DNA of 64,000 nucleotides from Salinicola corii (GTDB taxonomy: Bacteria > Pseudomonadota > Gammaproteobacteria > Pseudomonadales > Halomonadaceae). The notes under the pieces are model-generated. The model had not been told where the DNA came from. It made no database searches and was given only the letters and a program-made list of their open reading frames with translations. The translations under genes and the position numbers were made by a program. Shown piece by piece: positions 10,146 to 46,390 of this stretch; the first letter of the stretch is position 1, and every line of letters begins with the position of its first letter. The stretch lies in assembly GCF_008298015.1 (NCBI RefSeq), contig NZ_VTPX01000007.1:124001-188000 (forward strand), in the 5' to 3' direction.

Positions 10146-10173
10146 GGGTCAATTACCTCGACCGACCTAGATA

Positions 10174-10327
10174 GCTCTGTCTGAAAAATCGGCGAGCGAT
10201 GGCCAGACAAGGCAAAAATTGACGAAAAAAGGACCGGGCTGGCGCTCCAGTTTACGAGGTGTAAATGAGCATTTTGAGTCGATTTTTAACGCCGTATGGG
10301 CGAGCGCAGGCATTTTTCAGACAGAGC
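10174..10327. repeat. Intact terminal-inverted-repeat element, family A, copy 1
   Basis: 154 bp bounded by a perfect 16-bp inverted repeat: GCTCTGTCTGAAAAAT at 10174-10189 and its exact complement at 10312-10327. Inside are GGCGAGCGA, CAGACAAGGC (10204-10213), a small hairpin TTTACGAGGTGTAAA, and AACGCCGTATGG. No transposase is encoded and no clear target duplication is visible. It lies between hslR and yrfG, two genes adjacent in other gammaproteobacteria, so it is a later insertion or an expanded spacer. Confidence 0.85.
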
Positions 10328-10353
10328 GTAGATGGGGGTGGGCAGTGCCCGCT

Positions 10354-17409: not shown

Positions 17410-17733
17410 GCTGTTTCCCTTAGAGATGAATTCGCAATCGCTTCGCGGGGCGACCCGGCGAGGCGCACTCGCTTGCTAGGGTTTGTACGAAAAGTCGGCG
17501 AGCGAAGGCAAGACAAGGCAAAAATCGGCGAAAGCGCGGAGTTTACGGGGTGTAAATGAGCATCTTGAGCCGGTTTTTAACGCCGTATTGCCAAGTGCAG
17601 GCAGTTTTCGTACAGAGCCTAGGGTACCGCATCTCGAACGCCAAGAATCCATGGCGAGCCAGAGTCGATACCATTGGCCCTCGACGACGCTGAGCGATAC
17701 GGTTAACCGTGACGCGCATTCCGGTACGGTCCC
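17410..17733. other. Intergenic region with a family A repeat upstream of the molybdoenzyme gene
   Basis: These 324 bases lie between divergent start codons. The middle is occupied by the repeat element at 17476-17622. The 111 bases from the element to the ATG at 17734 are what remains for a dedicated promoter of the fusion gene; I see no confident -10/-35 pair. Confidence 0.5.
17476..17622. repeat. Terminal-inverted-repeat element, family A, copy 2
   Basis: 147 bp with ends CTAGGGTTTGTACGAAAAGT (17476-17495) and the complement of CTAGGCTCTGTACGAAAACT (17603-17622), matching at 16 or more of 20 positions. The interior repeats copy 1 closely: GGCGAGCGA, AGACAAGGC (17511-17519), TTTACGGGGTGTAAATGAGCAT, and AACGCCGTAT (17579-17588). 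Compared with copy 1, the terminal bases differ but change in step on both arms. Confidence 0.85.
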
Positions 17734-46001: not shown

Positions 46002-46390
46002 CGACGGGAATCCTCGGCTCGGGGATGGTTCGACTACCAGCGGCGCCAGTCAGGCATCCGGCGGCTCGATCTCAAAAATCGTCAGCGCAGTTCGAAAAGG
46101 GGGCGAGCGAAACCCAGACGAGGCAAGAATCGGTGAGGAAGCGGAATTGACACGGGAGTCGAGGCGCATTCCGAGCCGATCTTCAACGCTGTATGGGCGG
46201 CGCAGGCTCTTTTCAGGTGCAGCGTGGGGCGCAATGATACCCCAGCGCTGACGGCCTTTCCTATGAAAGTCCGTCATGCGCTGAACCATAATTTCTCACG
46301 TTGGCTTTAGCCTGGTTAAAACATGCCCGGGGGCGTCATCCGCCGTCTCGCCCCCGCCAGATTCGCCCCCTGCGGTCGCGTCGTGATCCA
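46002..46390. other. 389-base intergenic region upstream of glyA
   Basis: Holds one degenerate family A repeat (46083-46226). The remaining 160 bases, up to the end of the ABC permease gene, show no gene; CACGTTGGCTTTAGCCTGGTTAAAAC around 46299-46323 is a small A/T-rich patch that may carry the glyA promoter or the permease terminator. No glycine riboswitch pattern is recognised. Confidence 0.4.
46083..46226. repeat. Terminal-inverted-repeat element, family A, degenerate copy 3
   Basis: About 144 bp: left end CAGCGCAGTTCGAAAAG, right end CTTTTCAGGTGCAGCGTG, imperfectly complementary. The core shows AGACGAGGC (46116-46124) and AACGCTGTATGGG (from 46185), at the same 69-base spacing as copy 2. 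The inner hairpin is TTGACACGGGAGTCGA in place of TTTAC...GTAAA. Confidence 0.75.

Follow-up and report, generated by a model that had tools for sequence, protein, structure and literature searches.

The repeats dispersed through the 64,000-nucleotide stretch of Salinicola corii DNA analysed here (the window, C28:124001-188000 within a 4.66-Mb assembly) are MITEs that inserted as whole units with target-site duplications, and their interior fold is under strong structural constraint. Both properties hold together: these are MITEs with ends of insertion sequence (IS) type, and they carry a core with a conserved fold. The MITE family to which they belong is widespread and combines IS-type ends with a fold that appears to be under selection, the function of which we infer from sequence. 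The most probable explanation is that they are non-autonomous MITEs of IS5 type or IS1182 type with a selected folded core that acts on one strand.

Copies in the window and their parts

The sequence-only reading of this DNA had described three full copies of a repeat and a divergent fourth, and had proposed a covariance model as a way to follow them up. Inspection of the sequence places copies 1, 2 and 3 at the coordinates that it gave, and we built the model (R1; 130 positions, 35 pairs) from a training set that included copy 2 (L014) but neither copy 1 nor copy 3. R1 gave 53 matches in the whole genome at E≤0.01, including copies 1 to 3 (at 10177-10321, 17483-17612 and 46088-46217), and it matched 30 of 38 relatives at E≤1e-4, the genome's own entry counted; a genome blastn search with copy 1 as the query gave 43 matches. 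The three copies are thus one family, far beyond chance.

The divergent copy at 1831-1975 is also present and retains CCAGACAAGGC and AACGCCGTATGG, but island 2 (GTTTAC..GTAAAT) is missing. It is absent from the whole-genome R1 matches (E≤0.01); since it matches R1 at 1854-1964 in a search of the window only (E 0.0016, 20.5 bits), we regard it as a distant family member. Copy 3 has an apical hairpin altered on both arms, as had been noted, with TTGAC/GTCGA replacing TTTAC/GTAAA, and its island 1 also differs (GACGAGGC and AACGCTGTA). The limits of copies 1 and 2 were refined to 10173-10328 and 17480-17618, and the features of the window are as follows.

10168-10172, no strand: left target-site duplication of copy 1 (TAGAT); element missing between aligned flanks in 8 of 11 relatives
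10173-10328, + strand: copy 1, 156 bp, terminal-repeat class A, AGCTCTGTCTGAAAAAT..ATTTTTCAGACAGAGCG; from sequence, blastn, R1 and the relatives' sites
10208-10213, + strand: copy 1 island 1, 5' half, CAAGGC; conserved in alignment A1
10214-10223, + strand: copy 1 inner helix, 5' strand, AAAAATTGAC; pairs with 10278-10287, with covariation
10231-10249, + strand: copy 1 extra small hairpin module, GGACCGGGCTGGCGCTCCA, missing from copy 2; from sequence
10250-10266, + strand: copy 1 island 2, apical hairpin GTTTAC-N5-GTAAAT; conserved in A1, predicted fold
10278-10287, + strand: copy 1 inner helix, 3' strand, GTCGATTTTT; covariation
10288-10294, + strand: copy 1 island 1, 3' half, AACGCCG; conserved in A1
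10329-10333, no strand: right target-site duplication of copy 1 (TAGAT); from sequence and relatives
17476-17479, no strand: left target-site duplication of copy 2 (CTAG); empty site in G027
17480-17618, + strand: copy 2, 139 bp, terminal-repeat class B, GGTTTGTACGAAAAGT..AGTTTTCGTACAGAGC; from sequence, R1 and the empty site
17619-17622, no strand: right target-site duplication of copy 2 (CTAG); empty site in G027
46083-46226, + strand: copy 3, more divergent; R1 match at 46088-46217, 75.5 bits
1831-1975, + strand: copy 4, distant member with island 1 (1880-1890, 1931-1942) and without island 2; R1 match at 1854-1964

A small hairpin module (ACCGGGCTGGCGCACCAG and variants) flanks island 2 on one or both sides in some copies, among them the window copy at 10231-10249 and L113, L120, L143, L067 and L074. 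Similar small modules are seen in Salinicola and Pseudomonas records, and other copies have a longer module (GCGCAACGACCAACGGGAGTAACAGCC...).

Insertion as whole units

The relative G027 provides an empty site for copy 2, with a single CTAG where the window has CTAG, 139 bp and CTAG, and with flanks 98% and 96% identical to those of the window. At the site of copy 1, eight of 11 relatives lack the element between aligned flanks, G027 is filled, and the remaining two align on the left flank only. TAGAT is doubled around copy 1, and other class A copies have only TA in common, which is present in 7 of 9 copies besides copy 1 against a shuffled expectation of 7.13. A further end class has a 4-bp duplication in 6 of 11 copies (shuffled mean 2.13; reached in 4 of 1000 shuffles) and another has a 5-bp CTNAG duplication in 6 of 7 (shuffled mean 2.58; reached in 24 of 1000); the class B duplication statistics, from 4 copies with an end pattern that itself extended into CTAG, are as uninformative as those of class A. 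In the classes examined the elements are 125-172 bp long, have matched terminal inverted repeats and carry no transposase gene. With target-site duplications and empty sites, these are therefore transposed elements. In L044, L051, L125 and L146 the upstream gene's stop codon apparently overlaps the duplicated CTAG, and a target preference for gene ends would account for tolerated insertions.

Terminal classes and insertion sequences

The genus has at least three classes of ends: A (AGCTCTGTCTGAAAAAT), B (GGTTTGTACGAAAAGT) and C (AGGGTGTTTACAAA). Between copies 1 and 2 the terminal stems change from GTCTGAAAA/TTTTCAGAC to GTACGAAAA/TTTTCGTAC, exactly as the sequence-only reading had recorded, but its interpretation of this change as compensated pairing, and thus as evidence of folding, does not survive: because the ends match those of IS in the same or related genera, copies 1 and 2 simply carry different terminal inverted repeats, of class A and class B respectively.

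The ends of class A are shared with an autonomous IS, the IS5-family (NF033580) element L229 of the congener G037 (ends CGCTCTGTCTGAAAAAT..ATTTTTCAGACAAAGCG), the right end of which equals class A element ends across 17 bases. For class B no IS with such ends was identified in the genus. In Halomonas litopenaei, a locus with a PF01609 match and two stops (L168) has the end GCTAGGTTTTGTCTGAAAAGTC, resembling elements L056 and L076 from Halomonas records. The IS1182-family (NF033551) locus of Pseudomonas nitroreducens (L167; ends TGTGTGAAAACGT..GTTTTCACACA) resembles elements of other genomes (L099, L139 and L144) and not the element of its own genome, L069. Among 30 IS loci (17 of the 25 host genomes having a PF01609 match), few have element-like ends.

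R1 finds no core in L167, L168, L229 or L234 (of the L229 type), and gives no match in 45 of 47 IS loci, the two exceptions (L171 and L227) being one locus. There, a degenerate copy lies about 200 bases beyond a transposase fragment (L171, 1866-1981); its ends are unlike, with GTCTGAAAAGC on one side and a class C-like TTTCGTAAACACCCTCT on the other, and it has possibly exchanged or mixed its ends.

The sole PF01609 match in the S. corii genome is a broken relic of an IS5-type transposase (L031; G000:C7:8696-9037; ends TAAGAGCTCTTTTCAAAAC), on a contig other than that of the window. L031 was rejected as a source of the element ends, which differ from its own. PF01609 was matched in only 5 of the 18 genomes of the genus, yet the 13 without a match have 4 to 83 copies, suggesting that the mobiliser is often absent or comes from a family other than PF01609, the one searched. 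Exact target-site duplications tied to a known transposase family had been set against a selected structure in the sequence-only reading; the duplications, and IS5-family ends for class A, are indeed present, and the fold is nonetheless conserved.

A conserved fold with covarying helices

Across end classes and phyla the core consists of CAAGGC opposite AACGCNG (island 1) and GAAAAAGCGNAGTTTAC-N5-GTAAATGAGCATTTTGAG (island 2), joined by helices in which the sequence drifts and pairing is kept. Of the 142 copies collected, 91 passed a filter and three of these were removed by hand, leaving 88 in alignment A1; the consensus fold predicted from these 88 has 35 pairs, 28 of which show two-sided compensated change. 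When 109 copies, including the training copies, were realigned to R1, in an alignment that favours the model, 92.9% of pair cells were standard pairs, compared to 71.2% (sd 0.5) in shuffled data, none of 500 shuffles reaching the observed value, and to at most 44.8% with the partners slid. The covariation score, for which cells count sequences rather than events, was 0.499, against 0.151 shuffled and at most 0.116 slid.

Because the 109-copy alignment favours the model and contains its training copies, two gap-free tests were made. A structure-blind analysis of APC-corrected mutual information over 5,671 column pairs (69 copies, Bacteroidota excluded) placed hairpin pairs at all of ranks 1-6, and these account for 11 of the top 14 and 14 of the top 40 column pairs, from 27 pairs listed from folds. 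The other 13 fall outside the top 40; most of these scarcely vary, and the apical hairpin is nearly invariant. In the second test, on 84 fixed-spacing copies with 81 distinct interiors, end classes of 2 to 7 copies were taken one at a time, and 2 to 7 of 19 pairs still showed at least two Watson-Crick types; the end classes therefore do not generate the covariation. The proposal that a folded structure is under selection therefore holds for the interior helices, which covary, but not on the grounds of the co-varying ends, which are no proof of folding; the further suggestion that more than MITE decay is involved is borne out by the same interior covariation.

Strand and orientation

Read on the top strand, the inner helices of the 81 distinct copies contain 64 G·T and 19 A·C combinations (binomial p 7e-7, treating cells as independent). 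In the model alignments the G·T:A·C ratio over 34 pairs, a count that omits the one G·T pair of the apical hairpin that hardly varies, is 199:89, and 179:50 once two helix-end pairs are removed. A cruciform or template switching predicts equal numbers of the two, whereas a single strand, RNA or DNA, predicts an excess of G·T. The counts thus indicate that a single strand is active, either as RNA or as single-stranded DNA. The sequence-only reading had offered RNA or extruded DNA; a folded strand agrees with the data, but an extruded cruciform fits less well, given the surplus of G·T over A·C.

Long imperfect palindromes readily undergo template switching, raising the prospect that the compensatory pairs were made by switching between the arms (quasi-palindrome correction) and not by selection. 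We consider this unlikely, since such a process predicts no excess of G·T and should also wipe out the asymmetric conserved islands.

Gene context was examined for 134 copies with genes predicted by a simple codon-usage finder; 11 overlap a predicted gene, so that most are intergenic, 34 are without a close neighbour on one side, and 89 were used. Their settings are 23 (+,+), 32 (-,-), 22 convergent and 12 divergent, and the upstream gene and the element share a strand in 45 of the 89 and are on opposite strands in 44, showing no orientation bias with respect to genes ((+,+) versus (-,-), binomial p 0.28). These data bear on whether the repeat could be a cis-acting RNA element kept by the host as a terminator, RNase III site or mRNA stabiliser. 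The intergenic locations, the G·T excess and the rarity of divergent gene pairs, the least common setting, agree with such a role, as does the reported binding of Correia elements in mRNA by RNase III (PMC2649163). However, the absence of any preferred direction, and the differences in insertions between close relatives, make it unlikely. We infer from the lack of direction relative to genes that the fold seems to serve the element and not the neighbouring gene.

A DNA hairpin that is mobilised, or works, in single-stranded form at replication forks, in the manner of REP/RAYT or IS200-like elements, would also leave a one-strand signature. In G030 (contig C1) the top strand lies on the C-rich strand in 52 of 81 listed copies (81 of 86 matches; p 0.014), but in G038 the counts are 31 and 30 (69 of 73 matches, with a mixed bin of 8 copies omitted). 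With bias in one of two complete genomes, a consistent replication-orientation bias is not claimed. Target duplications are, to our knowledge, not expected of HUH/Y1 elements, and with them present here this reading is very unlikely.

Distribution

All 18 genomes of the genus are positive (the S. corii genome counted), with at least 4 to 90 copies each, these being lower bounds because no more than 90 candidates were scored in any genome. Four of seven other genera in the family are positive, as are 8 of 13 genomes of the order outside the family (R1, E≤1e-4). With stricter filters than in this search of 38 relatives, 63 of 143 gammaproteobacterial genomes, one per genus and the S. corii genome included, are positive at E≤1e-6.

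An exact motif scan of named genomes returned at least 119 stretches, 80 of them named; because the scan selected the exact island-2 motif, the invariance of that motif in alignments A1 and A2 is partly by construction. Among the matches listed are stretches from Pseudomonas, Stutzerimonas, Halomonas, Salinicola, Marinobacter, Marinospirillum and others, together with metagenome bins of Nitrosomonas and other Nitrosomonadales, Chromatiales, Desulfobacterales and Bacteroidota (Alistipes, Rikenellaceae). Every Bacteroidota record among the matches listed is a metagenome bin, and single records may therefore be mis-binned, for instance a Pedobacter bin that carries a Pseudomonas-like copy; Alistipes-type copies, however, have common ends of their own. 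L093 has the island-2 motif and no R1 match, and a motif match is thus not always an element. A Nitrosomonadales bin has several similar copies (L041, L055 and L071, with ends ACTGTGTCACATAGCG) close to contig edges, which suggests a recent expansion.

Positive records are rare among plasmids (14 of 72,556, and 16 with a different query), none of 50,697 phage records is positive, and 11 stretches with the exact motif were found in viral contigs. The occurrence of a common fold in very different bacteria suggests that the fold itself does something.

Relationship to known repeats

In 15 of 18 complete Correia-type copies, taken from loci picked in viral contigs with what we take to be the Correia pattern, which itself contains the 5' half TCAGGACAAGGC, this half is followed downstream by AACGCCGTA, with one-base variants in the other three. 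Island 1 is thus common to both groups, and the Correia core ACAAGGC..AACGCCGTA is also present in window copies 1, 2 and 4, the last of these resembling Correia-type elements in having island 1 only. At E≤1, R1 matches 4 of the 21 Correia-type loci, with an E of 1.3e-4 for the top two, and fails to match the remaining 17. Correia elements differ in having their own inner hairpin (GTAC-N5-GTAC), no island 2 and different ends, and the 26-bp Correia repeat ends were not found on the window family. The Correia repeat enclosed elements (CREE, nemis) of Neisseria are described as MITE-like, with duplication at TA and alternative ends (PMC2649163). Common descent of the two groups may be considered a lead from sequence comparison, and is not proven.

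MITEPsy1 of Pseudomonas syringae is described as a 100-nt element with IS5-like ends, a 4-nt duplication of CTAG or YTAA, and transposition observed in vivo (PMC3189936), and by that description it resembles the window family in its IS5-like ends and CTAG duplication. The same paper gives ISPsy19 the end GAGGGTGTAGACAAAAT and a 3-nt duplication (PMC3189936); the class C end GAGGGTGTCTACAAAAT of L015 agrees with it, by eye, at 15 of 17 positions. ISPsy19 and other IS5-family members are autonomous IS, and IS loci with element-like ends are without the core as judged by R1. The R0 and R2 repeats of P. fluorescens SBW25 (89 and 110 bp) resemble the window family in that they are described as intergenic and as having the ends of resident IS (PMC2718517).

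The window has no Rfam match at gathering score, and a search of nine loci at E≤1 found two tRNAs, with trpB and STnc50 below their cut-offs. Membership in the REP/BIME (RAYT) group, for which we know of no expected target duplication, was considered and set aside, as the window family duplicates its targets. In the open-licence literature, searched with the letters of the core sequence included, no description of this core was found.

Discussion

That these are plain decayed IS5-type MITEs, with an inherited long palindrome and an unselected fold, agrees with the target duplications, the IS-like ends and the numerous low-scoring copies, but is very unlikely given that the inner helices pair despite sequence change, across genera and within one end class, and that unpaired islands are common to different phyla (in part by construction, through the search with the island-2 pattern).

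We favour non-autonomous MITEs with a selected folded core. The terminal inverted repeats of class A are those of the IS5-family IS of a congener and other classes resemble other IS; the elements would thus have been moved in trans by DDE transposases of IS5 type, and elsewhere of IS1182 type, as judged from these ends. Between the ends, elements that differ in their termini share the folded core. Since copies have no preferred direction relative to genes, selection on its fold, in a single strand of RNA or of single-stranded DNA, would favour the element itself; candidate benefits are recognition by a host or transposition factor, or that transcripts running through the element are rendered harmless.

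A broader and distinctly more tentative interpretation, which we consider possible but not probable, is that the core is a chassis that extends through Pseudomonadota and Bacteroidota and has repeatedly adopted the ends of resident DDE IS, with Correia elements as one branch. It would act as RNA or single-stranded DNA of fixed polarity, with a conserved partner reading the islands. CORE-SINEs provide an analogy, of which this would be a bacterial DNA-transposon counterpart.

Descriptions of bacterial MITEs usually cover one genus at a time, and the elements are regarded as IS debris. With one core fold recurring on different IS-type ends in 63 of 143 sampled gammaproteobacterial genera, the elements described here would represent one widespread family with a selected fold, which may link the long-studied Correia elements to a broader group. 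The covariance model R1 can be used for annotating any genome, and a selected fold would make the purpose of a MITE interior testable.
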